A stretch of 64,000 bases of DNA, from NCBI RefSeq assembly GCF_904831005.1, contig NZ_LR882982.1:1-64000 (forward strand), read 5' to 3'. The position numbers and the translations under genes were made by a program. The first letter of the stretch is position 1; the number at the start of each line of letters is the position of its first letter. The DNA is from Microbacterium hydrocarbonoxydans (GTDB taxonomy: Bacteria > Actinomycetota > Actinomycetes > Actinomycetales > Microbacteriaceae). The notes under the pieces were generated by a model. It was not told the DNA's origin. It ran no database searches and worked only from the letters and a program-made list of their open reading frames with translations. Below, piece after piece: positions 43,235 to 62,940 of this stretch.

Positions 43235-46200
43235 TCAGTTGCCAGCCACGATCAAACCTTCTGAACGTCGTTCGAGTCGTCCGGTGCTCAGCCCAGTGTC
43301 CAGGGCCTCGCTCAGGCGATCGCCAATTCCCGATGTCACGCGCTTTCCGCCGAAGAGGCCGAGCGACTCACGCTTGACCTCCTCATCGGTCATCCCGCCA
43401 CTCAGGTCGGCAACAACCGCCATAGCATTCGCGATCTCAACGAGAGGGACATGCTCGAGAGGCCGAACCGACCCGTTGGCGGGACGACGGACGTCCCTCC
43501 ACATGCGTGCATCGACATCTCGTGGCCACAGGACTGTCCGGTCGTTCGACCGAACGAATTCTGACGGGACACAACGGAGTATTGCCTCTGCACGAGAAGC
43601 ATGGACCTTGCTCAGACCGAAGGCGCCGGCCACGAGCTTCACTAGGCGCATTCGGTGAATAGGGCCCTCATGCGTGATTACCTCCTGCACAAGGTCTCGT
43701 ACTCGCTGAGCCGCGGCTGGCGATGGCAGAGAATCGAGAACGGCGATGCCGCCCGCGGTTCGCGACGACCACTCCGAGAAGCCACGGATTCGCGGATGCT
43801 GCAGATCTGCAACCACAGGGGCCGGTGCCGATTGCGCTAGGGGGCCGGGCTCGGACATTGCCGCGCGCGATTCTGGCTCGTCCGGAGCGCTCGTCTCGGA
43901 GGCGACCGATGCCACGGCTGCGAGACCTCCGACGTCGGGCGAAGACGTCTGTACCATTGCTTCTTTGTCGGCACGACGCGCAGCAGCTGTCGCCTCCGTT
44001 ACGGCGGAACTGATGCGATCGATTGTTGCATCCCGTTGCTGCAGCCACTCGGGAAGCCACACGCGCTCCACGCCCGGCCAGTGCATGAGGCCCTTCAGGA
44101 CATCTGTGGGCAGCGCATCGCGGTCGGCCACAGTACGCCGCTCGCGCCACGTCGGGCCGTCGAGCAGAACGGCGAGCGCCGGTTGTTCAGGATCGTCTGT
44201 TGCCGAGACTGCGATGTCGACGCGGAAATCAGAAAGACCGATGTCCGTCTGCACCACGTGTCCTCGGTCACGAAGCGCTGTGGCGATCTCTTCTCGATGG
44301 CGATCGACGAATCCGGACCGGGCTACCTCGTCTGCATTCTCATCGATACCGTCAGCAGCAAGCTGCAGATATGAGCGCAGATGCTTGATACCCACGGATG
44401 ACGTTTGTTCGGCTCGTAGGTCTGACGGATCGAAGCTGGCGAACAGAACCACTTCTCGACGTGCACGCGTGATGGCGACGTTGAGACGGCGTTCTCCACC
44501 CGCACGCGAGAGCGGCCCGAAGTTGAGTGGCAGGTCACCACGCTCGTTCGCGCTGAAGGCCACGGAGAAGAGGATCGTGTCGCGCTCGTCTCCCTGCACG
44601 TTTTCCAGGTTCTTCACGAAAAGTCCGTCGCGCTGGTCGAGAGCGGCGGCGATTCGGTCGTCCGACTCGTCGCGCAGAAGCGATTCGATAAGTGAGCGTT
44701 GTTGCGCATTGAACGTCACGACTCCGAGCGACGGAGGCGTGTCGGACGCGGCGAAGCGCCGGGCGATGTCTCCGACGATGGCACGGGCTTCGACGATGTT
44801 GGTGCGAAGATCCCGTCCTCGTCCGCTTCTGTTGAAGTGACCGTCGACCCTGACGAGCGAAACTCCGTGACCGGATACCGATGGTCGTGAAGAGGACCTC
44901 GTCGGCCAGGGTGCAGGGAAAGACGCGAGTCGGCCGTCGTAGTACTTGTGATTGCTGAACGCGATCAGCGCCTCGTCCTGACTCCGGTAGTGCCAGGACA
45001 ACCAGCGTCTGGGCACCTGCGCTTGGACACACTCGCTCAGGATGGATTCCTCATCGGCGATCGCGGTGCTGTCCGTGGTCACCACCTCATCGGAGTCGGT
45101 GACCACATCGGCGAAGCTGGTCGGTGGCATCTGTTTGCTGTCGCCCACCACCACCACCGAGTTCGATCGCCCCATCGCGCCGATCGCATCAGGAACTCTG
45201 ATCTGCGACGCCTCATCGAAGACGACGATGTCGAACAGGTCGCCGGTTGCCGGGAAGAAGCGTGAGACGGATTCGGGACTCGCCAGCACGCATGGGGTGA
45301 TCTGCGTGATCAGATCTGCATAGCCATCCATCAGTCCGCGCACTGAGAGCCCCCCGCGCTGGCGCCCGATCTGGCGTTTGAGTTCGCCGAGGCGCCCGCC
45401 GCTGTATGCTGCGTCGATCTTCCTCCGGCCGAGTATTTCGGCGGGAATCCAACGTGGAAGCTCGGCTCGGATCGCGGCTGTGCTTGAGGTGAATCTTTCG
45501 ACGGATCGGCCGTGAGCCTGAGGGTCGAACATCTCGAGGCCCTGCGCATTCTCGCGCTCCACCAACGATGAGGCCGCCACGCCTTTGTCGAAGGCGATCG
45601 ACGCATCGTCTGCCAGCACGCGTCCCGAGATGAGTGCTGCGTGTGCGTCTGAGAGTCCATAGCTTCGCAGAGGCTCGAGCGCCCGAGCGAACGCCACCCA
45701 TCTCTGCAGGGACGTGGGAGTAGGGGTGTCGAGTGCCCGCGAACCGCGAGTTGCTCCCCACGCATCGACCACGGCGCGCGGCGAGGCCCAACTCTTCAAC
45801 ACCCCGGCTCCGATCTTCGGCGAAGCCATCACTTCGAGTGAACGCCAAGCTGTCCCGAGCTTTGCGAGCGCGCCGGAAAGCGCCGGATCCGCAGGCGAGG
45901 TGCGATAGGTCTCTCGCAGAATCGTTGCGTCCAGATCGTGAGGTCGCAACTCGAGAGCCCCGCTGAGCCAGACGAGCCAATCGAGCTGCGACGCGGCGCG
46001 CGCCGCGTCGGTCGCATCGAACGGGTTCCAACCCGCACCGACCACGGAGACGGGGAGCGAGAGGAGTCCGTTGCGCAGAGCAGCCGCCGACGCCGCTGTC
46101 GCTTCCACCTGTCCGGTCAACTGCGCGATGGATTTCGGAGGCACGCTCTTCAGAGGCACCAACAGGCTGTCGCCGAACATCTCGAGCGCCGATCGTTGAC

Positions 46201-49200
46201 GCTTGCGTCGGCCGAAGAACCCAGAGGCATCGGCAGCCTGAGCTGCTATGTGAACGGCACCGGGCGCCGGGTTCGCGCTCAGCGCGTGGAGGCTCACGGT
46301 GTTCGTCCACTGCGGTGATGCGGCCGTGAGCGTTCGAAGGTGCTGCTGAAGAGCGCTGAGTTCACCGGACCGGACGCGGGGGAGCAGCTGATCGAGGGAC
46401 TCAAGAGAGAAGCGTGGAGCTCCCGCGAGCTGTGACCAGCGTTCGATGAACTCAGGCGAGGTACTGTGCGAGAGTGCCGGCGACTCGCCGGTCGTGACGA
46501 CGAGGTCTCCGATCGCCTGGTCGAAGTCCATCGCTGCTCGATGCAGGGCCCCGATGTCCGACGGGTCGTGAGATGTGACGTCGACGAAACCCCAGCCGTT
46601 GAGCTCCGCTGGTCGGACAAGGTCGGCAGTGTCCGGCAGGCGTCTCAGCGTCGCGCGGACGAAGTCGATCTGCGTGGTGGAACTCGTCGAGACGAAAGCG
46701 GTCGGGATGTCGAGCGTAGGAGCATCGGGCTCGAACGCCAGGAGGCGATCCCTCGATGTGTAGAACGACATGCCCGCGGTGTTGCTCTCGTGGAGGCGGT
46801 CAGCGTACCGGCGCAGAGTGTTCCGGCTCGATACGGCGTTCTCGTTCTGTGCGCTGAGGGCGGCGCCGTCCGGGCGGGCGGTCGTTTCGAGTGCCTCTTT
46901 CAACTGCGCACGGACTGCGTTCGGGCGAGCGCCCTTGTCATGGAGATCGAGCGAGAACGGCCCCAGTCCGACGGCATCGAGGCGCTGCTTCACGACGTCC
47001 AGTGCCGCGCGCTTCTCAGCGACGAAAAGCACTCTCTTGCCGTTGACGATCGCATGAGCGAGAAGGTTCGTGATGGTCTGTGACTTCCCTGTGCCGGGAG
47101 GGCCTTCGAGTACGAACGTCCGGTCAGCGACCGCTTCCGAGACCGCATCGAGTTGCGAGGAGTCCGCCGGCACAGGCAAGGACGTGCCGAGGGCATCCAG
47201 ATCCACTGAGGTCGGCGACGGTGATGGGTCCTCAAACGATGCCGTCGGCGTATGAACGAGATGCTTGACGAGCGGGTTCGACGTGAAGGTCTCCCAGCTC
47301 TCGTCGAGGTCCTTCCACAGCCGGTACTTGCTGAACTGAAGGATCGACAGGTCTGCGGAGTCCTCTACGGTGAACGGCAAACGCGCTTCCGCCAGAGCCT
47401 GCCGCGCAGCCGCGAATGCAGCTGCGAGATTGATGCCGGCTTCATCCTTCACCGGGTTCTCGAGACCGGGGATGCGGATGCCGTGAGTCACCCGCAGCTT
47501 CTCGAGCAGGCAGTAGTTCGGTGTGGATTCACCCGTGTCGTCCACGCGCATACGGAACACAGAGCCGCGGCCCGCGGGCTCGAGAGTCACAGGCAGGAGG
47601 ATGAGCGGCGACCTGAGGTCGCGATCGTTGAATCGCCAGCGCAGCATTCCGAACGCGACGTAGAGATTGTTCGCGCCTGTTTCCTCGGCGATGGTGCGCG
47701 CCTTGTATGCCAGGGCGCGAAGTCGCGCGGTGTAGGCCCCCTCGGTGATGTCGACATAGGCGGACTTCCGGGACATGAGCAAGTCCGAGCGGACAGCTTC
47801 AGGCAGGTCGCGTCCGAACTGAACACCGCGGGTCTTGTCGACATCGGGGATTCGATCGCTGGGAAGGAGTGTGATCGGGGACCCGCTGTTGATCAGATCC
47901 TCGAATGTGGCTAGAGCTGGCTGCGGCACGGCGATGGAGTGACCCGCTGACGGCGTGTAGTTGATGAGGCGATTGCGCAGGCTCAGGTCGAGCAGGGAGT
48001 TCTTCCACGAGCTCACGCGCGCAGGCAGCCTGCGCGCGTCATCACCGGCGAGATCCGTGGCGGAGGGGTTGTACTGCAATGGATCCGGAGCTGCGGCCGC
48101 GCGGTACTCGTGCACCGTGACTTCGCCGTTCGAGCCGATCGAGCGACTCGGCAGGGGATAGATAGCTGCTTGTCGAGCCTGTAAGACATCGGTCACGCCG
48201 ATGACCCGAGTGGGGTCCACTTTGCCGTCGGTGAATGGCTGTCGTCGGGCGGCCCCGAACGGCGCGGATTCCGCCCCTCCGGTCATCTTCGTCGTTTCCA
48301 CGAGCCCGATCTTGCCGAGTCCGACGAGGTTGATCGCCTCGCTGGCCTCTGCCTGCGCAGGTGCGTCCAGGCTCGACCATTCCCTCCAGTATCCGAGGAA
48401 GATGTGACCTTCAAGAAGCCACAGGGTCGAGTTGATCCCGGCTTCCTCCAGGGCCGCGGCCAGGGTCAACGTCGTATCCATGCAGGTGCCAAGGCGCCCC
48501 TCGAGCACTTCGGCCGGAGTGCGCACTTTCTGCCCCGTGAGTCCCCAGCTCGCTGGCGGCTCCGCGTAACGGATGTCTCGCGCGCGTGCGGCGTCGTAGA
48601 TCGCTTCGACCATCGAGTCGACTCGATCAGGATCGCCCTGCTGATACCCGTCGAGTGCCGACGAACCCGTCCGGTTGCCCAGAAGCGTCGATGCCTCGAC
48701 AAGAAGAGCGCTGATGGCTGATGACTGAGGCTGGATGAATGCGGCGAGCAACTCGAGACTCAGCGGCATCGGCTTGGCCATCCACTGATTCGCGGCCAGT
48801 AGTTGAACGTCCGAGCGTTGGCTCGCGATCTCGTCACCGTTCGCGTCCCTCAACGTCGCTGTAACCGTGCCGGGCATGGGCGACTCGACCGCGAGCATGC
48901 GACCTGGATCCAGCCGCAGATCGACGTTACGAAGAGTCGTGTCATGGTCTCCGTCGAGGTCGACGATCAGAACGCGGGGGTCTCCCAGCGATCCCAACTG
49001 ACAGTCGACCTCGACCTCCACGGACGCGCCTCGCAGCTCGGGGCCTCGGTAGGAGATCGTAAGCTGCGGCACGACCGAGATGCCCGTTCGCGCGACAGCG
49101 AAACTCAACGGACTGAGCACAGAAGCGTCGAGCGAGGCAGCGGATCCCGATTCGTCGATGAGCGTCGGAGACTCGAAGGCTTCCCGGGCCGCGGGAGAGG

Positions 49201-49687
49201 CGGTCGGCTCATTTGGTTCCTGGTGCGTGGATTCGGTCGACGTGTTCAGCGCTGTTAGGACCTCCGACTTCAGGAGTCCGATCGCGTCGGCGTCTTCGTC
49301 GGCAGCAATCGCTCGCAAGAGGATCTCGGTCGAATCAAGAGCCCGGAAAGTCTGGGCGACTGTGAACTCTTCACTGTGCGCCCACTTGTTGCGGACGTCG
49401 CGGAGCTCACTCGCACAGTTGCTCGCCTGCCTGTCGATGAGGTCAGTGAAGGGGAAACCCAGCGTCCCGAGCCGCTCCGTCAGGACGCGAAGTTGCAGTG
49501 AAAGATCACGGGGGTTGTAGCGGTCCACCCGCCGGCCGGCCTGCCGGTCCTTCGCCGCGAGGATCTGTGTCCAATCCGACACCTCCGGGGCGACCTCGGC
49601 GAGACGTCGAGTCACGAACGGGACCAGCGCTCGGGCGGCAGCGGTCAACGCCTGCTCGACATACGCGGCCGGACTGAAGTCGCTCAT
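43235..49687 (-). CDS. Giant HEPN - DUF4011 helicase - REase - DUF3320 defence protein (Hhe-like)
   Basis: About 2150 aa. Domains in order: Swt1-type HEPN at the N-terminus with LRDVRNKWAHSE near residue 100 (R-x4-H RNase motif); a beta-sandwich/transglutaminase-like region with LGTCMDTTLTLAAALEEAG; DUF4011 (about 570-760); a split SF1 helicase with Walker A EGPPGTGKSQT near 862, Walker B VVFDEASQI near 1487, SWHYRSQDE near 1565 and VTRARREVVLF near 1745; an MTES_1575-type nuclease (DFRVDIAV ... LAVLLDGPTW, about 1800-1860); and a C-terminal DUF3320 (HPRIRGFSEWS ... ). This architecture matches single-protein HEPN-helicase-nuclease phage-defence systems. Start at 49687 or 49702 (ATG). It lies between two SDR 3'-end copies. 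Confidence 0.88.
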   Translation of the reverse strand: MSDFSPAAYVEQALTAAARALVPFVTRRLAEVAPEVSDWTQILAAKDRQAGRRVDRYNPRDLSLQLRVLTERLGTLGFPFTDLIDRQASNCASELRDVRNKWAHSEEFTVAQTFRALDSTEILLRAIAADEDADAIGLLKSEVLTALNTSTESTHQEPNEPTASPAAREAFESPTLIDESGSAASLDASVLSPLSFAVARTGISVVPQLTISYRGPELRGASVEVEVDCQLGSLGDPRVLIVDLDGDHDTTLRNVDLRLDPGRMLAVESPMPGTVTATLRDANGDEIASQRSDVQLLAANQWMAKPMPLSLELLAAFIQPQSSAISALLVEASTLLGNRTGSSALDGYQQGDPDRVDSMVEAIYDAARARDIRYAEPPASWGLTGQKVRTPAEVLEGRLGTCMDTTLTLAAALEEAGINSTLWLLEGHIFLGYWREWSSLDAPAQAEASEAINLVGLGKIGLVETTKMTGGAESAPFGAARRQPFTDGKVDPTRVIGVTDVLQARQAAIYPLPSRSIGSNGEVTVHEYRAAAAPDPLQYNPSATDLAGDDARRLPARVSSWKNSLLDLSLRNRLINYTPSAGHSIAVPQPALATFEDLINSGSPITLLPSDRIPDVDKTRGVQFGRDLPEAVRSDLLMSRKSAYVDITEGAYTARLRALAYKARTIAEETGANNLYVAFGMLRWRFNDRDLRSPLILLPVTLEPAGRGSVFRMRVDDTGESTPNYCLLEKLRVTHGIRIPGLENPVKDEAGINLAAAFAAARQALAEARLPFTVEDSADLSILQFSKYRLWKDLDESWETFTSNPLVKHLVHTPTASFEDPSPSPTSVDLDALGTSLPVPADSSQLDAVSEAVADRTFVLEGPPGTGKSQTITNLLAHAIVNGKRVLFVAEKRAALDVVKQRLDAVGLGPFSLDLHDKGARPNAVRAQLKEALETTARPDGAALSAQNENAVSSRNTLRRYADRLHESNTAGMSFYTSRDRLLAFEPDAPTLDIPTAFVSTSSTTQIDFVRATLRRLPDTADLVRPAELNGWGFVDVTSHDPSDIGALHRAAMDFDQAIGDLVVTTGESPALSHSTSPEFIERWSQLAGAPRFSLESLDQLLPRVRSGELSALQQHLRTLTAASPQWTNTVSLHALSANPAPGAVHIAAQAADASGFFGRRKRQRSALEMFGDSLLVPLKSVPPKSIAQLTGQVEATAASAAALRNGLLSLPVSVVGAGWNPFDATDAARAASQLDWLVWLSGALELRPHDLDATILRETYRTSPADPALSGALAKLGTAWRSLEVMASPKIGAGVLKSWASPRAVVDAWGATRGSRALDTPTPTSLQRWVAFARALEPLRSYGLSDAHAALISGRVLADDASIAFDKGVAASSLVERENAQGLEMFDPQAHGRSVERFTSSTAAIRAELPRWIPAEILGRRKIDAAYSGGRLGELKRQIGRQRGGLSVRGLMDGYADLITQITPCVLASPESVSRFFPATGDLFDIVVFDEASQIRVPDAIGAMGRSNSVVVVGDSKQMPPTSFADVVTDSDEVVTTDSTAIADEESILSECVQAQVPRRWLSWHYRSQDEALIAFSNHKYYDGRLASFPAPWPTRSSSRPSVSGHGVSLVRVDGHFNRSGRGRDLRTNIVEARAIVGDIARRFAASDTPPSLGVVTFNAQQRSLIESLLRDESDDRIAAALDQRDGLFVKNLENVQGDERDTILFSVAFSANERGDLPLNFGPLSRAGGERRLNVAITRARREVVLFASFDPSDLRAEQTSSVGIKHLRSYLQLAADGIDENADEVARSGFVDRHREEIATALRDRGHVVQTDIGLSDFRVDIAVSATDDPEQPALAVLLDGPTWRERRTVADRDALPTDVLKGLMHWPGVERVWLPEWLQQRDATIDRISSAVTEATAAARRADKEAMVQTSSPDVGGLAAVASVASETSAPDEPESRAAMSEPGPLAQSAPAPVVADLQHPRIRGFSEWSSRTAGGIAVLDSLPSPAAAQRVRDLVQEVITHEGPIHRMRLVKLVAGAFGLSKVHASRAEAILRCVPSEFVRSNDRTVLWPRDVDARMWRDVRRPANGSVRPLEHVPLVEIANAMAVVADLSGGMTDEEVKRESLGLFGGKRVTSGIGDRLSEALDTGLSTGRLERRSEGLIVAGN

Positions 49688-49800
49688 TGACCCTCTATTC
49701 ATCCGCCGACGCCCTCGGTTGGCCGTCATCCCTCACTGAGCATATGAGCTGAGGCGAATACGCACCCGTTTTCGGCGGTCGGGTGCGGAGACTGCAGGGC

Positions 49801-52473: not shown

Positions 52474-52572
52474 GCGAGGCGCATGGGGTGATGTCATGGT
52501 TCGCCGGTACGGTGAGAATCGACACCTCGCAGACACAACCCAGTTAGCGCCGCGGCGCAGGAGATGAATCAG

Positions 52573-54153
52573 ATGGCACCGACGACCAAAGAAGGACAGC
52601 GCGCGGAGCTGCACAAGATGATCTGGCGGATCGCGAACGACCTGCGAGGGTCCGTTGACGGCTGGGACTTCAAGAGCTACGTGCTCGGCATGCTGTTCTA
52701 CCGGTTCATTTCGGAGAACCTGACGGCCTACCTGAACGCCCACGAGCACGAGGCCGGCGACGACTCCTTCGACTACGTGAAACTGTCGGACGACGAGGCG
52801 GAGTTCGTTCGTGCCGACGTGGTCGCCGAGAAGGGCTTCTTCGTCCTTCCGAGTGAGCTGTTCGTGAACGTCCGACGACGCGCGGCACAGGATGAGAACC
52901 TCAACGAGACGCTTGAACGGGTCTTCAAGAATGTGGAGGGCTCGGCGCTCGGCGCCGACAGCGAGGATGATCTGAAGGGTCTGTTCGATGACCTCGACGT
53001 CAACAGCAATAAGCTGGGCGCCACGGTTGCCCGTCGAAACGAGAAGCTGGTAAAGCTACTCGATGCCATCGGTGATCTGCCGCTTGGTCGCTTCGAGGAC
53101 AACTCGATCGACCTGTTCGGCGATGCTTATGAGTACCTCATGCAGATGTACGCCGCCAACGCTGGCAAGTCCGGTGGCGAATACTACACGCCGCAGGAGG
53201 TATCGGAGCTGCTGGCCCGCATCACTGTGGTTGGCAAGACGCAGGTCAACAAGGTGTACGACCCAGCTGTCGGCTCGGGCTCCCTTCTGCTGAAGTTCGC
53301 CAAAGTGCTCGGCAAGGAGAACGTTCGCCAGGGCTTCTACGGCCAGGAAATTAACCTGACCACGTACAACCTGGCGCGGATCAACATGTTCCTGCACGAC
53401 ATCAACTACTCGGACTTCAACCTCGCACATGGCGACACGTTGATCGATCCCCAGCACTGGGACGACGAGCCGTTTGAGGCGATCGTCTCTAACCCGCCCT
53501 ACTCGATCAAGTGGGATGGCGACGCCAACCCGCTGCTCATTAACGACGAAAGGTTTGCCCCCGCTGGCGTGCTGGCGCCGAAGTCGAAGGCAGACCTTGC
53601 CTTCACGATGCATATGCTCAGTTGGCTTGCGGTCAACGGCACCGCAGCCATCGTCGAGTTCCCCGGCGTGCTCTACCGCGGGGGAGCCGAGGCAAAGATC
53701 CGCCAGTATCTGATCGACAACAACTATGTCGAGGCCGTGATCCAGTTGCCAGCGGACCTCTTCTTCGGCACCACCATCGCGACCTGCATCTTGGTTCTCA
53801 AGAAATCCAAGAAGACCAATGATGTGCTGTTTATCAACGCAACGGCTCAGGTTAAGCGTGTAGGCAACAAGAACAAGCTCCTGCCGGACCATCAGAAAAA
53901 CATCCTCAGCGCGTACGAGTTGCGTCGGGATGAAGACCACTTCGCGAAGGTCGTTAGCAACGAGGATATTGCTGCCAACGGGTACAACATCGCCGTCACG
54001 TCGTACGTCGAAGCCGAGGACACCCGCGAGGTCGTCGACATCGCCGCACTTAATGCGGAGATCGCTCAGATCGTGGCGCGTCAAGCTGAACTCCGGACCT
54101 CAATCGACGAGGTCGTCGCTGAGCTGGAAGCGGGGGGACATGCGATTGTCTGA
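52573..54153 (+). CDS. hsdM: Type I restriction-modification system, methyltransferase subunit
   Basis: 526-aa N6-adenine methyltransferase of a type I system. The N-terminal HsdM_N domain (LHKMIWRIANDLRGSVDGWDFKSYVLGMLFYRFISENL) is followed by the SAM-binding motif VYDPAVGSGSLLLKF (about 230-244) and the catalytic IVSNPPYSIKW (about 308). The ATG at 52573 is preferred because GCAGGAG is 9 nt upstream; the ATG at 52564 directly abuts the Shine-Dalgarno. It opens a densely overlapping operand of eight genes and modifies DNA together with HsdS. Base composition is less GC-rich than the left part of the window. Confidence 0.95.
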   Translation: MAPTTKEGQRAELHKMIWRIANDLRGSVDGWDFKSYVLGMLFYRFISENLTAYLNAHEHEAGDDSFDYVKLSDDEAEFVRADVVAEKGFFVLPSELFVNVRRRAAQDENLNETLERVFKNVEGSALGADSEDDLKGLFDDLDVNSNKLGATVARRNEKLVKLLDAIGDLPLGRFEDNSIDLFGDAYEYLMQMYAANAGKSGGEYYTPQEVSELLARITVVGKTQVNKVYDPAVGSGSLLLKFAKVLGKENVRQGFYGQEINLTTYNLARINMFLHDINYSDFNLAHGDTLIDPQHWDDEPFEAIVSNPPYSIKWDGDANPLLINDERFAPAGVLAPKSKADLAFTMHMLSWLAVNGTAAIVEFPGVLYRGGAEAKIRQYLIDNNYVEAVIQLPADLFFGTTIATCILVLKKSKKTNDVLFINATAQVKRVGNKNKLLPDHQKNILSAYELRRDEDHFAKVVSNEDIAANGYNIAVTSYVEAEDTREVVDIAALNAEIAQIVARQAELRTSIDEVVAELEAGGHAIV

Positions 54154-54949
54154 CCTCCTTTCCAAAGCTCCGGACGTCGCATCTGCTCAAGTCGAGGGCT
54201 TCCTCTCCGACCGCCCCCTCGGGTGGGGCAAGCACAAGCGCATCAAGGTGGGGAAAGTCATCCACAATTTCCACTGCCATGCCTGTGGCGATATCCGGCC
54301 GTTTGAATCGGGCGAGGAACTCTACTGCCTGGGGCTGAGCGACCAACAAGTCAGCATCGACGCAACGCTTCGGTGCATGGTATGCCGTGCCTCGGTTGAG
54401 GCGTGGTTCCTGGTGGCTTCCAAGGGGGACATCTACGGACGGGCACCGGAAGTGCGCGTTGAGCGCTACACGGAGAACCTTCGGGATCGCGCGGAACGCG
54501 TCGGCGTGGCACAGGGGCCATTTGCGGACCTCTTGAAACGCGCGCAGCTTGCTTACGAGAACGACCTTGGTGCCGGTGCCGTCATTTACCTTCGCAAGAT
54601 CTTCGAGAAGGTCACATGGGAAGTGGCGGAGATCCTCGGCGTTGAAACGAAGAAGCACAACGGCAACCCCCGTCCCTTCGCGACCGTCCTTGAAGATGTC
54701 AATAGCATCCGCCGCATCATCCCGCAGCGCTTCTCAAGCGATGGCTATCAGCTGTTCCGAGAGCTCAGCGGCATCATCCATGGCGACTCGAGCGAAACGG
54801 AAGCGCTGCAGAAGTTCAAGCCGTGCCTCCAACTTGTGCTCGGCGTCGTTAACGAGGTCAACCAGGACAACGTGGTTGCCAAGGCGATCGAAGAGCTCGG
54901 CTGGAAGATCGACAGTATCGGCGTCCTCGCGGAGGGGATCGCGTCATGA
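54140..54949 (+). CDS. Zinc-ribbon plus HEPN/DUF4145-like protein inside the hsd operon
   Basis: 269-aa protein overlapping hsdM by 14 bp and hsdS by 4 bp. The N-terminal region has HCHACGDIRPF (about residues 46-56) and LRCMVCRASVEAWF (about 79-92), a likely zinc ribbon. The C-terminal helical part contains AQLAYENDLGAGAVIYLRKIFEKV and LFRELSGIIHGDS, an R-x6-H motif like HEPN/DUF4145 domains. It is not part of a canonical type I system. Its place between M and S suggests a regulator, toxin-like RNase or accessory subunit. Family assignment is by motif only. Confidence 0.7.
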   Translation: MRLSDLLSKAPDVASAQVEGFLSDRPLGWGKHKRIKVGKVIHNFHCHACGDIRPFESGEELYCLGLSDQQVSIDATLRCMVCRASVEAWFLVASKGDIYGRAPEVRVERYTENLRDRAERVGVAQGPFADLLKRAQLAYENDLGAGAVIYLRKIFEKVTWEVAEILGVETKKHNGNPRPFATVLEDVNSIRRIIPQRFSSDGYQLFRELSGIIHGDSSETEALQKFKPCLQLVLGVVNEVNQDNVVAKAIEELGWKIDSIGVLAEGIAS

Positions 54950-56151
54950 GCCGCATTGACGAACTAATCGCTGATCTTGCGCCTCTAGGCGTGCGTCACG
55001 TTGAGTTGGCGGCGGTAGCCGGGTACTCACCCGCGAGAGTCGACGCATCCGAACTCGACGAGACCTCATTCGTCGGCGTCGACAATCTTGTGGCCAACAA
55101 GGGCGGCCGGGTCGATGCCAGCTACTTACCGAACACCGCGCGACTTACGGCCTATGAGCCCGGCGACATTCTGCTTGGCAATATCCGTCCGTACCTCAAG
55201 AAAGTGTGGCGAGCGACGTCAAGTGGTGGATGCAGTGGTGACGTACTAGCCGTCCGTATCCACTCGGATGCTCGGGGCGAACTTGACTCTGAGTTCCTCT
55301 ACTACATCTTGTCATCCGACGCATTCTTCGCTTACAACATGCAGCACGCCAAGGGCGCGAAGATGCCTCGTGGCAGCAAGGCTGCGATTCTGAATTACCG
55401 AATTCCCGTGCCGCCTCTCGAGGTTCAGCAGGAGATCGTGGGAATATTGGATAAGTTCACTCAGCTGGAAGCGGAGCTGGAAGCGGAGCTGGAAGCCCGG
55501 CGCGCGCAGTACGACTACTACGCTGGCCGCTTGCTTGCGGTGGACGGCGATGTTCCGCGCGTGCGATTCGGCGACATTGCGACAATCGTTCGCGGTGCAT
55601 CCCCACGTCCTATCCAACAGTTCCTGACCGACGACCCTGATGGTGCTGCGTGGATCAAGATCGGTGATGTACCGGCTGACGGCAAGTTCATCACGCGTAC
55701 TGCTCAGCGCGTGACGGCCGCGGGTGCTTTGAAGTCACGTCGTGTGATGCCCGGCGACTTCGTGTTGTCCAACTCGATGAGCTTCGGGCGTCCATACATC
55801 TCGAAGATTGAGGGGTACATCCACGACGGCTGGCTCGCGATTAGCCAGTTCGAGGATTCTTACGTGGCGGACTATCTGTACTACCTGCTTCGCTCTGCGC
55901 CTCTGCAGGACGAGTTCAAACGGCGTGCAGGCGCAGGTACGGTTCAGAACCTGAACGCCGATATCGTTCGCTCGGTGGCGATCCCGCTCCCGCCCAAAGA
56001 AACGCAGGAGCGCATCGTCGCGCTACTGGACCGCTTCGACGCGCTATTGAATGACATTAACGTTGGTCTGCCGGCCGAGCTACGAGCGCGCCGTTCGCAG
56101 CTCGAGCACTACCGTGACCGCCTGCTGACGTTCAGGGAGTTGGCGGCATGA
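54946..56151 (+). CDS. hsdS: Type I restriction-modification system, specificity subunit
   Basis: 401-aa specificity subunit with two target-recognition domains (about 1-140 and 200-345), each followed by a helical conserved region. The first helix ends PPLEVQQEIVGILDKFTQL and the second LPPKETQERIVALLDRFDALL. The central helix contains a tetrapeptide repeat, LEAELEAELEA, encoded by a 12-bp tandem repeat at 55464-55496. The two TRDs read the half-sites of a bipartite DNA target. It is coupled by ATGA to the genes on both sides. Confidence 0.93.
   Translation: MSRIDELIADLAPLGVRHVELAAVAGYSPARVDASELDETSFVGVDNLVANKGGRVDASYLPNTARLTAYEPGDILLGNIRPYLKKVWRATSSGGCSGDVLAVRIHSDARGELDSEFLYYILSSDAFFAYNMQHAKGAKMPRGSKAAILNYRIPVPPLEVQQEIVGILDKFTQLEAELEAELEARRAQYDYYAGRLLAVDGDVPRVRFGDIATIVRGASPRPIQQFLTDDPDGAAWIKIGDVPADGKFITRTAQRVTAAGALKSRRVMPGDFVLSNSMSFGRPYISKIEGYIHDGWLAISQFEDSYVADYLYYLLRSAPLQDEFKRRAGAGTVQNLNADIVRSVAIPLPPKETQERIVALLDRFDALLNDINVGLPAELRARRSQLEHYRDRLLTFRELAA
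55464..55496 (+). repeat. 12-bp tandem repeat in the hsdS central helix
   Basis: GCTGGAAGCGGA occurs twice in full (55464-55475, 55476-55487) and once in part (GCTGGAAGC, 55488-55496), encoding repeated Leu-Glu-Ala-Glu. Gain or loss of one unit keeps the frame and changes the spacing between the two recognition domains. Confidence 0.85.
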
Positions 56152-56654
56152 GTGGTGTGTCGATTGTTGACACAGTCGATCGCTGGGCAGAGATCTCAGA
56201 CGATGGTCTGTACCGCTACCGCCTCGGTCGGCGTTGGGACGCGAGCCTGCCCGAGTGTGTCTTTATCATGCTGAATCCGTCGATTGCGGACGCGTCTCAG
56301 GATGACCCGACGATCCGTCGCTGCATCAGCTTCGCGAAGAGCCTCGGCTGCGGCTCATTGCTCGTGGGCAATCTCTACGCCTTTCGCGCAACGGATCCGC
56401 GTGACCTTTTCAGGGCGGGGGAGCCTACCGGCGGCGCGAGGAACGATGCAGCGCTTACCGAGCTCTTCGCCCGCGGCGCGACCACCGTCGCGGCATGGGG
56501 CGCGCATGCGAAGCCTGAGCGTGTCGCTGAGGTGTTGCACCTTCCCGGTGCTGATCGTCTCACCGCGCTTGCGACGACGAACACAGGCGCCCCTCGCCAT
56601 CCTCTTTACGTGCCCGGGACTGCCACGCCTACTGCCTGGAGGATGGCCCTATGA
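56148..56654 (+). CDS. DUF1643-family protein inside the hsd operon
   Basis: 168-aa protein of the DUF1643 family: YRYRLGRRWDASLPECVFIMLNPSIADASQDDPTIRRCISFAKSLGCGSLLVGNLYAFRATDP, GGARNDAAL, VAAWGAHAKPERV and the final TNTGAPRHPLYVP are hallmarks. The family occurs in phages, plasmids and restriction loci, and its activity is unknown. It overlaps hsdS and hsdR by ATGA on each side, so it should be made at comparable levels to the restriction subunits. Confidence 0.85.
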   Translation: MSGVSIVDTVDRWAEISDDGLYRYRLGRRWDASLPECVFIMLNPSIADASQDDPTIRRCISFAKSLGCGSLLVGNLYAFRATDPRDLFRAGEPTGGARNDAALTELFARGATTVAAWGAHAKPERVAEVLHLPGADRLTALATTNTGAPRHPLYVPGTATPTAWRMAL

Positions 56655-59600
56655 GTGACGCACTGGCGCGCAAGTACGACCCAATTGCCATCTCTGCCGA
56701 GAGCACGGTCGTTGCGGAGTATGTTGCTGACCCAGCGAGCGCAACGGCGTATCAGTCTGAGGCAGACCTCGAGCGCGAGATGCTTCGGCTGCTTCAGAGC
56801 CAGGCGTATGAGTACCTCCCGATCGTCTCCGAGGTGGCGCTCGTCGCGAATCTCCGAACTCAGCTGGAGGCCCTCAACAGCTTTAGGTTCTCCGACGCAG
56901 AGTGGGAACGCTTCTTCACAACGAAGCTGGCCGGCCAGAACGAGGGCATTGTCGAGAAGACAGTCCGCATCCATGAAGATCACGTTCAGACGCTCACGCG
57001 CGACGACGGATCGACCAAGAACATCTCACTACTCGACAAGAAGAACATCCACAACAATCGCCTCCAGGTGATCAACCAGTACGAGGTCGCCCAGGGCGAG
57101 GGCGCTGGGAAGTATGCCAACCGCTATGACGTGACGGTGCTGGTGAACGGGCTGCCGATGGTGCACATCGAGCTCAAGCGCCGCGGCGTGGACATTCGGG
57201 AAGCCTTCAACCAGATCAACCGCTATCAGCGTGAGAGTTTCTGGTCAGGGTCGGGCCTGTTCGACTACGTCCAACTGTTCGTCATCAGCAACGGCACACT
57301 GACGAAGTACTACTCCAATTCGACTCGTTCGAAGCACCTCAAAGAGGCGTCGAGCAAGCAAACCAAGGGCAAGAAGACGAGCAATTCGTTCGAGTTCACG
57401 TCCTGGTGGGCGGACGCACAGAACAACCCGATCCAGGAGCTGACCGCCTTTACCAAGACGTTCTTCGCTAAGCACGCGCTGCTCAACATCCTGACGCGCT
57501 ACTGCGTGCTCACAGCCGACCGGGATCTGCTGGTGATGCGCCCGTACCAGATCGTCGCGACCGAGCGGATTCTCCAGAAGATCGAGATCTCTACCAATTA
57601 CCGGAAGCTCGGCACCATCGACGCTGGCGGCTACGTCTGGCACACCACCGGGTCAGGCAAGACGCTGACGTCATTCAAGGCAGCCCAACTGGCGTCCAAG
57701 CTGCCGGACGTCGCCAAGGTCCTGTTCGTTGTGGACCGCAAGGACCTCGACTACCAGACGATGCGAGAGTACGACCGGTTCGAAAAGGGTGCGGCCAACT
57801 CCAACGCTTCGACCGCGATTCTGAAGAAGCAACTCGAGGATCCGAACGCCCGGATCATCATTACGACCATCCAGAAACTCTCGACCTTCATCCGGGCCAA
57901 TAAAGGTCACGAGGTCTTCTCGGGCCACGCCGTCATCATCTTCGACGAATGTCACCGATCGCAGTTCGGCGACATGCATGATGACATCACGCGCGCCTTC
58001 AAGCGATACAACCTGTTCGGTTTTACCGGCACGCCGATCTTTGCTGCAAATGCAGGAGCCGGCGGGAAGCCGACACTTCGAACCACGGCCCAGGCCTTCG
58101 GCTGCTTCCTGCACGGTGATCCGGCGAACTGCCCCCCGGAGCCGCACCAGATGGCGATCCACACCTACTCGATCGTCGATGCGATTACGGACAGGAACGT
58201 GCTTCCTTTCCGTATCGACTACATCAACACGGTGCGAGTCGGGAACCCGGACGACAAGCAGGTCTCGTCTATTGACCGCGAGAAGGCGCTACTCGATCAG
58301 CGTCGTATCAGCGAGATCGTGAAGTACACCCTCGAGCACTTCGACCAGAAGACCCGTCGGACGTCCGCATATGAACACGCGGTCGTGACGAACGTTGCTG
58401 AGTCCGTCCGCACACGAAAGCAAGTCGAGGCTGTCAAAGAGAAGAAGCGAGTCCGCGGCTTCAACGCGCTGTTCGCGACCGCGTCGATCGAGGCAGCGCA
58501 GACGTACTACCTCACGTTCAGGACGGCACAGGCAGAGCTCACCCCAGATCGACGCCTGCGAGTCGGCGTCATCTTCAGTTACGGTGCCAACGAAGCGACC
58601 GACGACGGCATCCTCGACGATGAAGCCTTCGACACTGATGCGCTCTCGGGAAGCAGCCGGGACTTCCTCGAATCGGCGATTCGCGACTACAACGCGATGT
58701 TCGGCACCAGCTACGACACGAGCGCGGACAAGTTCCAGAACTACTACAAGGACCTGTCGCAGCGGATGAAGAACCGCGAGATCGACCTGGTCATTGTCGT
58801 CAACATGTTCCTCACGGGCTTCGACGCCACCACGATGAACACTCTGTTCGTAGACAAAAACCTTCGCTCGCATGGTCTCATCCAGGCCTATTCACGCACC
58901 AACCGCATCCTGAACTCCGTCAAGACCTACGGCAACATCGTCACGTTCCGTGACCTAGAGGACGAGACCAATGCGGCGCTCGAGCTCTTCGGGAACAAGG
59001 ATGCGCGTGGCGTCGTGCTGCTCAAGCCGTATGCCGACTACTACAGCGAATACGCCGAGAAGGTCATCGAGTTGCTCCAGCGGTTCCCGCTCGGTCAGCA
59101 GATCGTTGGCGAATCGTCCCAGAAGGCCTTCATTGCGCTGTTCGGGATGATCTTGCGGCTGCAGAACATCCTGACCTCGTTCGACGACTTTGCCGGCCAG
59201 GATCCGCTAACGGAACGCCAGAGCCAGGACTACCGGAGCGTCTACCTCGACCTGTACGCCGAGTTCCGCAAGGAACGCGAAGGCGACAAGGAGACGATCA
59301 ACGACGACGTGGTCTTCGAGATCGAACTGGTCAAGCAGGTCGAGATCAACGTCGACTACATCCTCATGCTGGTGGAGAAGTATCGCGCGAGCTTCGGCGA
59401 CGGGGAGAACAAGGAGATCCGCGCCCAGATCTCACGCGCGGTCGATGCGAGCCCGAGCCTGCGCTCGAAGCGCGACCTCGTCGAGGACTTTGTCGATTCG
59501 ATATCTATCGATGGTGCTGTGGACGAACAGTGGCGAGCGTTCATCGCGGCCAAGCGTGAGGCAGAGCTTGAGTCGATTATCGCGGAGCAAAAGCTCAAGC

Positions 59601-59803
59601 CCGAGCCGACGCGCGCCTTCGTCGAGGCGGCGTTCCGCGACGGTCAGCTTCGAACAACTGGCACCGACATCACCCGAATTCTCCCGCCTGTGTCACGCTT
59701 CAATCGCTCGGCAGGTCACGGTGCAACCAAGAGGCGCGTCGTCGAAGCGCTAACGGGCTTCTTCGAACGATTCTCTGGGCTTGGAGCAGTGGATGGCGAA
59801 TAG
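56651..59803 (+). CDS. hsdR: Type I restriction-modification system, endonuclease/translocase subunit
   Basis: 1050-aa motor and nuclease subunit. The N-terminal nuclease has NRYDVTVLVNG and VHIELKRRG (ExK, about residue 178). The helicase core has GYVWHTTGSGKTLTS (Walker A, about 325-339), VIIFDECHRSQFGDMH (DECH box, about 434), FTGTPIF and MFLTGFDATTMNTLFVDKNL, with AYSRTNR near 760. The C-terminal helical domain assembles with HsdM/HsdS. The ATG overlaps the DUF1643 stop. All key motifs are intact, so the enzyme looks functional. Confidence 0.95.
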   Translation: MSDALARKYDPIAISAESTVVAEYVADPASATAYQSEADLEREMLRLLQSQAYEYLPIVSEVALVANLRTQLEALNSFRFSDAEWERFFTTKLAGQNEGIVEKTVRIHEDHVQTLTRDDGSTKNISLLDKKNIHNNRLQVINQYEVAQGEGAGKYANRYDVTVLVNGLPMVHIELKRRGVDIREAFNQINRYQRESFWSGSGLFDYVQLFVISNGTLTKYYSNSTRSKHLKEASSKQTKGKKTSNSFEFTSWWADAQNNPIQELTAFTKTFFAKHALLNILTRYCVLTADRDLLVMRPYQIVATERILQKIEISTNYRKLGTIDAGGYVWHTTGSGKTLTSFKAAQLASKLPDVAKVLFVVDRKDLDYQTMREYDRFEKGAANSNASTAILKKQLEDPNARIIITTIQKLSTFIRANKGHEVFSGHAVIIFDECHRSQFGDMHDDITRAFKRYNLFGFTGTPIFAANAGAGGKPTLRTTAQAFGCFLHGDPANCPPEPHQMAIHTYSIVDAITDRNVLPFRIDYINTVRVGNPDDKQVSSIDREKALLDQRRISEIVKYTLEHFDQKTRRTSAYEHAVVTNVAESVRTRKQVEAVKEKKRVRGFNALFATASIEAAQTYYLTFRTAQAELTPDRRLRVGVIFSYGANEATDDGILDDEAFDTDALSGSSRDFLESAIRDYNAMFGTSYDTSADKFQNYYKDLSQRMKNREIDLVIVVNMFLTGFDATTMNTLFVDKNLRSHGLIQAYSRTNRILNSVKTYGNIVTFRDLEDETNAALELFGNKDARGVVLLKPYADYYSEYAEKVIELLQRFPLGQQIVGESSQKAFIALFGMILRLQNILTSFDDFAGQDPLTERQSQDYRSVYLDLYAEFRKEREGDKETINDDVVFEIELVKQVEINVDYILMLVEKYRASFGDGENKEIRAQISRAVDASPSLRSKRDLVEDFVDSISIDGAVDEQWRAFIAAKREAELESIIAEQKLKPEPTRAFVEAAFRDGQLRTTGTDITRILPPVSRFNRSAGHGATKRRVVEALTGFFERFSGLGAVDGE

Positions 59804-60560
59804 CGATAATAAAGCGACGCTCGTCAAGGTCGTCTACTTCGACGAAGAGTCCGTGTCTGACTTGCTCGACATTTCGGCCGGCGGGAAGGAGGCCCAGACG
59901 ACCGAACGAGTCAAGGAACGCGCCACCGATATGCACGCTAGTGCGGACACCAAGTTGGCCGCGAAGTTCAACTGGCTCCCGTTCCTCGGCGGATCTGCGG
60001 AGGTTGGCGCTGGTGCAAGCGCCTCAAGCCTAGGCAGGAGCATCTTCAACAAGACGCTGTCGAACACCATCCTCACGGACTACTTGGCGAAGGCGATCGA
60101 GTTTCCCGCGGTTTTGAAGCTGGGGGGTCTGCGCTTGACCGCCCAGAAGGACTCAGCGGCGTACACGAAGATGTTCACGCCGTATGCGGCGCTGCTGAAG
60201 ATGGATGACCTTCCGGTGGATCTCGCCCGGATGGATGAGGCGCTCGAGGCGGCAAAGGGCTACTACGAACTTGTCGGTGAAGATGCTGACGGCCATAAGA
60301 AGATTCTGCGGTTCAACATCCGAGCGTTCCGGAACAACTACGGACTTGTCGATCTCGGACGGATGGAACTCGTGTTTCACGGGCTGAGAGTCGGTCGCGC
60401 AGCGGAGTCGAGTCTCACCATGTCGGCGGAGATGTCGCCGACCGGCCCCGCGCCCATTACGGCTAAGGAGCTTCTTGAAGGGACGACTGACGAAGGCCAC
60501 CCAGCGGGGCTGCTTGACGTATATGACGTCCTCCTCGCAGGGGTAGAGCATGTCGGGTGA
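59793..60560 (+). CDS. DUF6414-like protein linked to AAA ATPase
   Basis: 255-aa soluble protein beginning with KVVYFDEESVSDLLDISAGGK, which resembles the DUF6414 family. A Gly/Ala-rich turn (GGSAEVGAGASASSLGRSIFNKTLSNTILTDYL) and a beta-rich C-terminal half follow. The ATG at 59793 has GGAG 7 nt upstream and overlaps the hsdR end by 11 bp. The next gene (AAA ATPase) again overlaps by 11 bp, so the two probably form a unit. Function unknown; a substrate adaptor or sensor for the ATPase is possible. Confidence 0.65.
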   Translation: MANSDNKATLVKVVYFDEESVSDLLDISAGGKEAQTTERVKERATDMHASADTKLAAKFNWLPFLGGSAEVGAGASASSLGRSIFNKTLSNTILTDYLAKAIEFPAVLKLGGLRLTAQKDSAAYTKMFTPYAALLKMDDLPVDLARMDEALEAAKGYYELVGEDADGHKKILRFNIRAFRNNYGLVDLGRMELVFHGLRVGRAAESSLTMSAEMSPTGPAPITAKELLEGTTDEGHPAGLLDVYDVLLAGVEHVG

Positions 60561-61725
60561 CATCAAGATCGTGGTCTACTACGGGCCGTTGTCGTGGTTC
60601 CAGGAACAAACGAAGAAGAAGCACTCCGAAGGCCTTCTAGAGTCGGTGTTCGCGCACGACGAGCTTCTGCGCGAACTTCGCGTTGTTATGCCTCCGCAGG
60701 ACGGTGAGCGGCCCCGTAAGAATCCGCGCTGGAAGCGGCCAAAGCGATTGGTAGCGGAATCAGGTGACTACGCAAGCCTTCAGGAGCATGTGATCACGAA
60801 TTTTCCTGGCCTCCTCCGAGCCCTAAACCCGAGGGAACTGCACCTGCACAACCCTCCCGCCCAGGTGCACGCTCATCTTAAAAGGACTTTCACCGGTGAG
60901 GGTATTTTCTCCCTAAGGACCTACGACTACCCTGCCGTCACCCGTGACACACTGGTGAAGTTCAATGACGGCTTTGAAGATCACTTGGTTGGGCAGCCTG
61001 GCGTCAGGGAGTCTCTGCTCTCCGCTCTCTACCCGCTTACTAGAGCGAACCATGAGAAGCCGATGGTCGTCATGTTCTACGGGCCGTCCGGTGTGGGCAA
61101 GACGGAGACGGCACAGTTTATCAACGGGCTGCTCGGCGGGACGCTTATGCGCAAGCAGTTTTCGATGTTCCACAATGATAAGTTCGCGTCCTATGTGTTC
61201 GGAGGCGGTCACGCGGAAGCATCTTTCGCTCGGGATCTGCTCGATCGGGAGTCTGGTGTGATCCTGATCGACGAGTTTGACAAGGCCAACTCCGTATTTC
61301 ATAGTGCGTTCTACCAGCTTTTCGATGGTGGTGTCTTCGAGGACAAGAACTACCACGTAAAGATTGGCCGGTCCCTGATTATCTGTACTTCAAACTACGC
61401 GTCCGAGAAGGAGATCCGCGACGCGCTCGGCGACGCACTCTATTCCAGGTTCGACGCGTTGGTCGGGTTTAGGTCCCTCGCCAAAGAAGAAGTCATGACT
61501 ATCATCGGAACTCTGGTCGATCGCCGGTTCACATCTCTAGAGGTCGATGAGAAGCAATCGATCGACGCAGAGTTCGTCAAACAGAAATTGCATCCGGTTG
61601 CGGGGAGTGTAGGGAACATTCGCAAGCTCGGCAAGCTAGCTGACGAGATCATCTCAAGGCTTCTCGTCCAGAACATGCTGTCTAATCTGTCATCCGCAAA
61701 ATATCAGAGTGGCAGCGATGCCTAA
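60550..61725 (+). CDS. AAA+ ATPase, Clp/HSP100-type single module
   Basis: 391-aa ATPase. An N-terminal region of about 150 residues without clear homology is followed by a Clp-type AAA module: FNDGFEDHLVGQPGVRESLLSAL, Walker A FYGPSGVGKTETAQ (about 176-190), Walker B GVILIDEFDKAN (about 236-247), sensor 1 LIICTSNYA, and Arg finger region ALYSRFDALVGF. The C-terminal part includes a sensor-2-like GSVGNIRKLGK. No ClpP-binding loop is evident. It is coupled to the DUF6414-like gene upstream and to a HEPN protein downstream, suggesting a defence-associated remodelling ATPase. Confidence 0.8.
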   Translation: MSGDIKIVVYYGPLSWFQEQTKKKHSEGLLESVFAHDELLRELRVVMPPQDGERPRKNPRWKRPKRLVAESGDYASLQEHVITNFPGLLRALNPRELHLHNPPAQVHAHLKRTFTGEGIFSLRTYDYPAVTRDTLVKFNDGFEDHLVGQPGVRESLLSALYPLTRANHEKPMVVMFYGPSGVGKTETAQFINGLLGGTLMRKQFSMFHNDKFASYVFGGGHAEASFARDLLDRESGVILIDEFDKANSVFHSAFYQLFDGGVFEDKNYHVKIGRSLIICTSNYASEKEIRDALGDALYSRFDALVGFRSLAKEEVMTIIGTLVDRRFTSLEVDEKQSIDAEFVKQKLHPVAGSVGNIRKLGKLADEIISRLLVQNMLSNLSSAKYQSGSDA

Positions 61726-61761
61726 CTCCGCAGACACGGACACGGAGATGAAGGTAGTCAA

Positions 61762-62940
61762 GTGAGCAGAATCAGCGTTTCGCAGAAGACCGTTCTCGAG
61801 TCCCTCCTTGGCATGTCGAGCGGGCACGTCCTCGACTTCAGTAATGCCACGTTCGCCAACTTCTTCCGCGATTTGAGTATCGATATCTACGATGCCGAGC
61901 AATACCCAGGCTTCGGTGACTCAAAGGCCAATCGTCTCCGCGCCCTCTGGAAGAGTGGCCCGGATCAAGAAGTCGCGAGTGCGCTTCACGCCATGGCCGA
62001 CTACATCGAGGCGAAGAACCTCGCCTCCGCTTCGGTTATCAACGTGAGTGAAGATCAGGTAGCCCTCGTGCGTTCCATCGCCCTCGACCTGCTTCCTCCT
62101 GCCCCTACATCGGCTGCTAGCTTCACAACCGAAGCGACCGTGAGGGCAAACAAGATTCAGATCGAAATCCACGAAGACATCTACGATCACATCCGCCCCT
62201 ACCTCGCGACCGAAGACTACTTTCATGCCGTCGAGGAGGCCTACAAGGTCGTTCGTGAGGCGCTCCGCGACAAGTCCGGTAGTGAAAAGGCGACAGACGC
62301 GTTCAAGCCGGACAACCTTCCGAAAATCTTCGGCCATGCTCCGGTCAACGCAGTAGAGAGCAACTTCTTCGATGGAGTCAAGTATCTCAACATGGCTATC
62401 CAGTTCCTCCGGAACGAGAAGTCTCACACCCTTGCGACGCCGCTCGAGCGGAACCTTGCGCTGCACTACATCTCAGTCGCCAGTCTTTCCTACGATTTGA
62501 TCACGAGGTACGTCAGCGAGGACCTGATCAAGGAGATCGAGGAACTTGTCGCGACGACGCGTCGCACGTATTCAGCGACGCGCTTCTATCGCGTGTTTGA
62601 GGGGGGCAGTTGGATCGATTCCTTGACGCTCCCCTCCGAGCTTGCGTCGTCGTCGGTACAAAAAGTATTGAAGGAGAAGTGGCTCCAGGAGGCAGACTTC
62701 ACTCGCTCGTATGATCACAGCAACATCATGTTGATGCGGCTGGAGTTGGTCGTCGATGAACTGACGAAAGCGGACATTGACGCGCTGCTGGAGCGCCCGA
62801 CTGTCGATCATCGTGGGAACAGCCAGGAGGCGGGCATGCTCCAATTTCTTGAGTTCGTTCAACAAAAGAACGCCGAATCGGTCTCGGCGCAAGCGATTGA
62901 GTGGATGTCGAAAGAGCGGCGTCAGTACGGGGCGGAATGA
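61762..62940 (+). CDS. TIGR02391/Abi-like HEPN protein
   Basis: 392-aa protein. The central part resembles the TIGR02391 (Ymh/abortive infection) family: YFHAVEEAYKVVREALRDKSG, then FFDGVKYLNMAIQFLRNEKSHTLATPLERNLALHYISVASLSYDLI, with R-N-x3-H as the HEPN active-site motif (about residue 219). The N-terminal 120 residues (FANFFRDLSIDIYDAEQYPGFGDSKANRLRALW) may be the ligand- or partner-binding part. It starts with GTG 36 bp after the AAA gene and closes the operon. It probably cuts RNA when activated. Confidence 0.78.
   Translation: MSRISVSQKTVLESLLGMSSGHVLDFSNATFANFFRDLSIDIYDAEQYPGFGDSKANRLRALWKSGPDQEVASALHAMADYIEAKNLASASVINVSEDQVALVRSIALDLLPPAPTSAASFTTEATVRANKIQIEIHEDIYDHIRPYLATEDYFHAVEEAYKVVREALRDKSGSEKATDAFKPDNLPKIFGHAPVNAVESNFFDGVKYLNMAIQFLRNEKSHTLATPLERNLALHYISVASLSYDLITRYVSEDLIKEIEELVATTRRTYSATRFYRVFEGGSWIDSLTLPSELASSSVQKVLKEKWLQEADFTRSYDHSNIMLMRLELVVDELTKADIDALLERPTVDHRGNSQEAGMLQFLEFVQQKNAESVSAQAIEWMSKERRQYGAE

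Follow-up and report, generated by a model that had tools for sequence, protein, structure and literature searches.

What do extra genes do within and behind a type I restriction-modification (R-M) system, and do they form one machine with it or a set of parts that can be exchanged? The question is raised by eight genes in a 64,000-nucleotide stretch of Microbacterium hydrocarbonoxydans DNA (assembly GCF_904831005.1, contig NZ_LR882982.1, positions 1 to 64,000), called the window here. The operon holds a complete type I R-M system, the two-gene Dodola system and three further genes, ZnHEPN, DUF1643 and TIGR02391. It is probably a layered anti-phage operon, horizontally acquired and put together from separable, exchangeable modules rather than built as one fixed machine. 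Its genes are closely packed, and its parts recur elsewhere in other combinations. The modular reading draws on two counts: ZnHEPN accompanies hsd genes in all five of the other loci that carry it, and relatives of the other extra genes occur in none of 42 other loci with the same HsdR subtype.

Layout of the operon

The eight genes run in one direction on the + strand from 52564 to 62940, and their open reading frames (ORFs) were re-checked. They are, in order:

hsdM, 52564..54153, + strand: type I adenine methylase subunit of 529 residues; TIGR00497 at 725.9 bits (cut-off 242.75); N6_Mtase and HsdM_N matches; NPPY motif.
ZnHEPN, 54140..54949, + strand: protein of 269 residues from an unnamed family; beta-rich N-terminal domain with two CxxC pairs, then a HEPN-like helical bundle.
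hsdS, 54946..56151, + strand: specificity subunit of 401 residues with two target-recognition stretches; PF01420 Methylase_S at 7.5e-26 and 91.8 bits (cut-off 22); PADLOC Specificity_I at 7.1e-92.
DUF1643, 56148..56654, + strand: protein of 168 residues at the ATGA junction of hsdS and hsdR; possibly uracil-DNA-glycosylase-like.
hsdR, 56651..59803, + strand: EcoR124-like restriction/translocase subunit of 1050 residues; TIGR00348 at 532.6 bits (cut-off 284.55); EcoR124_C at 8.1e-71.
dolA, 59793..60560, + strand: DUF6414 protein whose gene starts within the end of hsdR; PADLOC DolA PDLC03837 at 1.6e-71 and PF19952 at 3.4e-29, both scanned from an alternative TTG start at 59781.
dolB, 60550..61725, + strand: Clp-type (ClpB-like) AAA+ ATPase with Walker A and B motifs; PADLOC DolB PDLC03838 at 1.3e-131.
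TIGR02391/Ymh HEPN gene, 61762..62940, + strand: protein of 392 residues; TIGR02391 at 4.4e-24 and 85 bits (cut-off 39.45); HEPN motif R217-N-E-K-S-H222.

Matches in Pfam, NCBIfam and PADLOC are strong for seven of the eight, the exception being ZnHEPN. When recomputed, the junctions were found to be overlaps of 14, 4, 4, 4, 11 and 11 bp followed by a 36-bp gap between dolB and the TIGR02391 gene, which confirms every ORF and junction of the eight-gene coupled run listed in a preliminary description of this DNA. That description took the tight coupling to mean fixed stoichiometry, which does not follow; what such overlaps point to is co-transcription and translational coupling. It also had non-R-M genes lying between the canonical subunits. 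This is true of ZnHEPN and DUF1643 and of no others, since the Dodola and TIGR02391 genes come after hsdR. The DUF6414 and AAA genes, which it counted as separate additions, together make up Dodola by their PADLOC matches.

The GC content of the operon genes is 55-64%, compared with 68.3% for bases 1-52563 of the window; this fits horizontal gain, which is how the operon appears to have arrived. A consensus scan of its + strand found no terminator-like site, and promoter-like sites were no more frequent than in shuffled sequence (3 versus a mean of 2.8), so that the scan does not contradict a single transcript, yet adds little. An Rfam search gave no match, no tRNA was found in the window or in region L163, and none of the listed repeat families stood out as clearly marking a module border.

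The type I R-M core and its apparent accessory slots

All three hsd products exceed curated cut-offs, and methylase and nuclease/translocase motifs are present; in HsdR these are the strings GSGKT (Walker A), DECH and an ExK motif in the form D-x13-ELK. This HsdR subtype (E <= 1e-150) was found in 45 of 396 genomes of the order, including the window's own, and for all of the 44 other genomes except G591 and G619 the region was read, which gave 42 loci. Contig ends truncate some of the regions fetched in this work (L002, L004, L009, L057, L068, L078, L088 and L094). By tblastn at E <= 1e-4, ZnHEPN is present in two of the 42 loci; relatives of DUF1643, DolA, DolB and TIGR02391 are present in none. 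Other genes occupy the same positions. The slot between hsdM and hsdS holds a Mrr-type nuclease gene at L056:11673-12599, which was scanned, and by eye a similar one in L058, L060, L067 and L072; the slot between hsdS and hsdR holds a RAMA/GIY-YIG gene in L067 and an AAA_13 gene in L061, both scanned. It therefore seems that accessory genes are interchangeable at these slots of the R-M subtype, in a way comparable to prrC and the rlo genes (PMC2610378, PMC12707154; here and below, in excerpts of the papers cited). In relatives of the same subtype, hsdR contains an in-frame stop in G420, G447 and G348 and consists of two pieces in G543.

ZnHEPN, a fourth gene of one R-M subtype

ZnHEPN had no significant match in Pfam, NCBIfam, PADLOC or PHROGs, and its assignment comes from a predicted structure model, in which the beta-rich domain is followed by a helical bundle with the HEPN fold. 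Foldseek gave nothing at E <= 0.001. PF13643 (DUF4145) did not match at E <= 1. UniRef gives one relative (P0119) the name DUF4145. Against PDB sequences, the ZnHEPN profile returned histone H2A at E 0.0014, which was judged to be a chance helical match. Its carriers number three of 396 genomes in the order and four of 345 in the genus, the window's own included in each count; plasmids gave no match, and in viral contigs none was confirmed.

The other five ZnHEPN loci all read hsdM-ZnHEPN-hsdS-hsdR, and tblastn found no relatives of DUF1643, DolA, DolB or TIGR02391 in their regions. ZnHEPN is therefore a recurrent, unnamed fourth gene of one type I R-M subtype. In an alignment of 70 of 120 listed homologues (own included) plus L046, four Cys are invariant and His214 is kept in 71 of 71 rows, but motif position Arg207 is Arg in only 15 and Ser in 40, so that the Rx4-6H pattern of HEPN RNases is not conserved. 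The protein is less likely to be a canonical RNase than a sensor or regulator that binds R-M. A more specific version of this idea, in which ZnHEPN belongs to R-M as a subunit with a structural or regulatory role (one that controls HsdM/HsdS assembly, for example, or senses anti-restriction proteins) and is no RNase, is compatible with the layered, modular operon and has a little under an even chance of being right: the constant position between hsdM and hsdS, the invariant Cys and the scarcity of the motif Arg all speak for it.

DUF1643 at the hsdS/hsdR junction

Both joints of DUF1643 in the window read ATGAGT, as does the direct hsdS/hsdR joint of L103 and L105; in L104 and L045 it is ATGAGC. 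The retention of ATGAGT on both sides means that DUF1643 fits the hsdS/hsdR junction, and it was counted in favor of modularity. The protein may be weakly uracil-DNA-glycosylase (UDG)-like. It did not match the Pfam UDG family PF03167 at E <= 1, and an hhalign comparison of its alignment (85 of 120 listed homologues plus the window) with UDG alignments reached a best probability of 5.3, which is not significant; MUG versus UNG also failed, so that this comparison has no power. PDB sequence searches with the DUF1643 and TIGR02391 profiles yielded nothing useful. It is possible, if on balance doubtful, that DUF1643 is a UDG-like enzyme which excises modified bases from the DNA of phages and so complements restriction, as Brig1 attacks modified T4 DNA. 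This sub-hypothesis, too, is compatible with a layered operon, and DUF1643 becomes a candidate DNA-acting enzyme.

The Dodola pair and its partners

Together, the DUF6414 and AAA genes constitute Dodola, a published system of two genes: dolA is followed directly by dolB, with an 11-bp overlap. Phage protection has been reported for other Dodola systems (PMC11514479, PMC12322248), whose mechanism is listed as unknown in PMC12322248. Twelve other actinobacterial loci came from two scans (ten and two), mainly one that used the window's own DolB and so brought in nearer relatives. A DolB profile run over 299 genomes of the family matched all 299 through Clp proteins; only the three matches above 400 bits (own, G285 and G174) were kept, the next scoring 104 bits. 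In phages DolB had no match at 1e-30, and at least 39 loci of 22-32% identity, found in viral contigs with the DolB alignment, were taken as Clp-like proteins. DolA precedes DolB in 12 of the 12 other loci, and in L047 (10143-12128) the two are fused into a single ORF of 661 codons, which supports a direct DolA/DolB partnership. In L008 dolA has an internal stop and in L006 its recognizable N-terminal part is missing; dolB is open in both.

If the eight genes encoded one integrated machine with fixed stoichiometry, they should be found together again. The overlaps do run continuously across the operon, and there are hints of wider linkage: ZnHEPN and TIGR02391 of Microbacterium sp. NPDC089190 lie on contigs that are both 834038 long, and in Arthrobacter sp. 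W1 ZnHEPN (RN04_07105) and DUF1643 (RN04_07095) lie on equally long contigs, ten tag numbers apart. However, the linkage search uncovered no second complete copy of what the preliminary description took for one conserved eight-gene system. Dodola is missing from all 42 HsdR-subtype loci, and by tblastn no relatives of the window's hsdM, hsdS or hsdR occur in the 12 other Dodola regions (L002, L004 and L009 being short). A single eight-subunit machine is accordingly very improbable. The converse, that the extra genes live apart from hsd and from one another, holds for most of them (DUF1643, Dodola and TIGR02391) but not for ZnHEPN, which stays with hsd.

Several of the Dodola loci have other defense genes as close neighbors. 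With the window included, dolA overlaps its upstream gene or is at most 30 bp away from it in five of 13 actinobacterial loci, the partners being HsdR (window), the type III Res subunit (L004, L005), a CBASS 2TM effector (L010) and RhuM (L003). Likewise, dolB lies within 40 bp of its downstream gene in six of 13, the partners being TIGR02391 (window, L010), GajA (L004), a PrrC-like PDC-S06 protein (L005), ApeA_NTD1 (L048) and a protein in L008 that is 44% identical over 68 residues to the N-terminal domain of TIGR02391 and contains the string RNFRNYIH. Two cases were left out of these counts: in L002, a 238-codon ORF 5 bp after dolB that appeared by eye to be non-coding, and in L006, the upstream side, where no dolA start was found. 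The pair is coupled to defense genes on both sides, at 36 bp or less, in the window and in three of the 12 other loci. In particular, L004:4401-14760 has a type III methylase and Res, dolA-dolB and GajA-GajB; L005:4434-13779 has a type III methylase and Res, dolA-dolB and the PrrC-like PDC-S06 gene; and L010:7593-12396 has a CBASS cyclase, the 2TM effector, dolA, dolB and TIGR02391 in one tight run. Actinobacterial Dodola thus tends to be packed between other defense genes, in a set of few loci chosen by similarity to the window DolB and with no matched background.

This packing bears on whether the operon is plain defense stacking, in which independent systems share a transcript and do not signal to one another. 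Every module but ZnHEPN has been seen apart from the others, further defense-like genes lie in the neighborhood, and across five Firmicutes plasmid regions (of 36 records) nothing is closely coupled 3' of dolA-dolB, the next gene being either absent or 146 to 442 bp away from dolB. (One of these regions, L052, has a recombinase gene whose end lies 25 bp before dolA, and DNA methyltransferase genes lie near L051 and L053 dolA-dolB.) Yet the tight junctions on both sides of Dodola in the window, L004, L005 and L010 are more specific than the loose clustering of defense islands, the same lack of a matched background applying here. Plain stacking is therefore rather unlikely.

The same junctions permit a bolder proposal, in which actinobacterial Dodola serves as a plug-in relay: type I R-M, type III R-M or CBASS would lie upstream as the detector, and a HEPN protein, a PrrC-like protein or Gabija downstream as the killer. 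We regard this as distinctly unlikely. Were it true, a detector state such as inhibited or overloaded restriction would be signaled to the killer by the DolA/DolB ATPase, turning precise restriction into abortive infection. The position of Dodola between a restriction subunit gene and a HEPN or nuclease gene makes for a concrete, testable hypothesis on its input and output. In the literature searched, no description of Dodola packed against type I R-M, type III R-M or CBASS genes was found; the original Dodola description is outside that coverage, so that novelty is not proven. Neither DUF6414 nor TIGR02391 was mentioned in that literature.

The TIGR02391 gene and a possible second line of defense

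In an alignment of 30 of 120 listed homologues plus the window, R217, N218, E219, K220 and H222 of the TIGR02391 protein are found in 31 of 31 rows, so that RxxxxH is invariant, as expected of a family member. Residues 1-117 match plasmid proteins (51 records in all) that are mostly annotated 'abortive infection family protein'. The gene occurs in three of 396 order genomes (E <= 1e-40), and neither of the two other than the window's own has a DolB relative in the fetched region; in L010 it lies directly 3' of dolB.

At least one of the three further genes, that for TIGR02391, likely encodes an RNA-cutting enzyme, judging from this motif. The preliminary description had HEPN RNases as the first and last members of the added set. 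There is a HEPN-type protein at either end, but RNase activity is doubtful for ZnHEPN. The suggestion in that description that RNA cleavage or dormancy backs restriction is partly supported, more so for TIGR02391 than for ZnHEPN, whose Arg is not conserved. A HEPN backup is supported by the invariant RxxxxH, by the precedent of PrrC in EcoprrI, the worked example of an established principle (PMC3710099, PMC12707154), and by the at least 16 HEPN clades that are linked to R-M (PMC3710099). As a second-line idea for R-M it has already been proposed in PMC3710099, so that the interpretation is not new in kind.

Taken together, these observations suggest how a layered operon, with three layers in a single transcript, could work. 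At the base is a complete type I R-M system, whose subtype can carry ZnHEPN between hsdM and hsdS; DUF1643 occupies the hsdS/hsdR junction, and hsdR is followed by a dolA-dolB-HEPN cassette. In the first layer, R-M would cut unmodified incoming DNA; DUF1643 may act on DNA as well, its targets possibly being modified bases by which sites escape restriction. Dodola, as a Clp-like ATPase pair, would form the second layer. The TIGR02391 HEPN protein would be the third, an RNase that halts translation upon failure or blockage of the outer layers, in the manner of PrrC in EcoprrI; failure of the first layers would then be its trigger.

Neighboring genes

Beside the operon, a 2164-codon ORF on the - strand (window 43235-49729) encodes a giant HEPN-helicase-nuclease. 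The part scanned (44006-49729) matches HEPN_Swt1, DUF4011, AAA_11/AAA_12 and REase_MTES_1575, as well as PADLOC PDC-S37 (1.1e-250) and Hhe (3.5e-114). Just 3' of the operon, at the end of the window, a gene on the - strand (C1 63823-64863; L163:1324-2364) encodes a protein of 346 residues that contains a CBS domain and gives a weak match to Swt1-like HEPN, at 26.9 bits against a cut-off of 27.5.

Comparison with known systems

The Brig1 DNA glycosylase may resemble DUF1643 through a UDG-like fold in a defense setting; the match is weak, and any activity of DUF1643 is putative. Dodola itself agrees with the window pair in that both genes are present, adjacent and strongly matched in PADLOC. However, it is described as a two-gene system, and its copy in S. 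thermophilus 90729 is, in the excerpt of PMC11514479, not beside other resistance systems, whereas here it is coupled to hsdR and then to a HEPN gene. The Campylobacter jejuni rlo ORFs are likewise extra ORFs within type I R-M loci (PMC2610378, citing Miller et al. 2005), but they belong to other families; those named there, rloC, rloE and rloG, are PrrC-like.

EcoprrI/PrrC, a type IC R-M system with an anticodon nuclease as its guardian, shares with this operon an extra gene embedded in a type I hsd operon and a HEPN-type RNase as a second line (PMC3710099, PMC12707154). Here, the extra genes are instead ZnHEPN, DUF1643, Dodola and TIGR02391. There is no PrrC/ABC-ATPase HEPN protein: the listed families of the eight proteins include neither AAA_13 nor PrrC, and thus not the AAA_13 ABC ATPase with C-terminal HEPN of PrrC/RloC. 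The nearest precedents for the two HEPN proteins carry the same second-line hypothesis (PMC3710099): DUF4145, with its zinc-ribbon fusions and R-M operons, is like ZnHEPN, which differs in giving no DUF4145 profile match, and Ymh, with its AbiJ-NTD fusions and R-M neighborhoods, is like TIGR02391. What sets the window apart from these is that two HEPN proteins and Dodola are combined in one operon.

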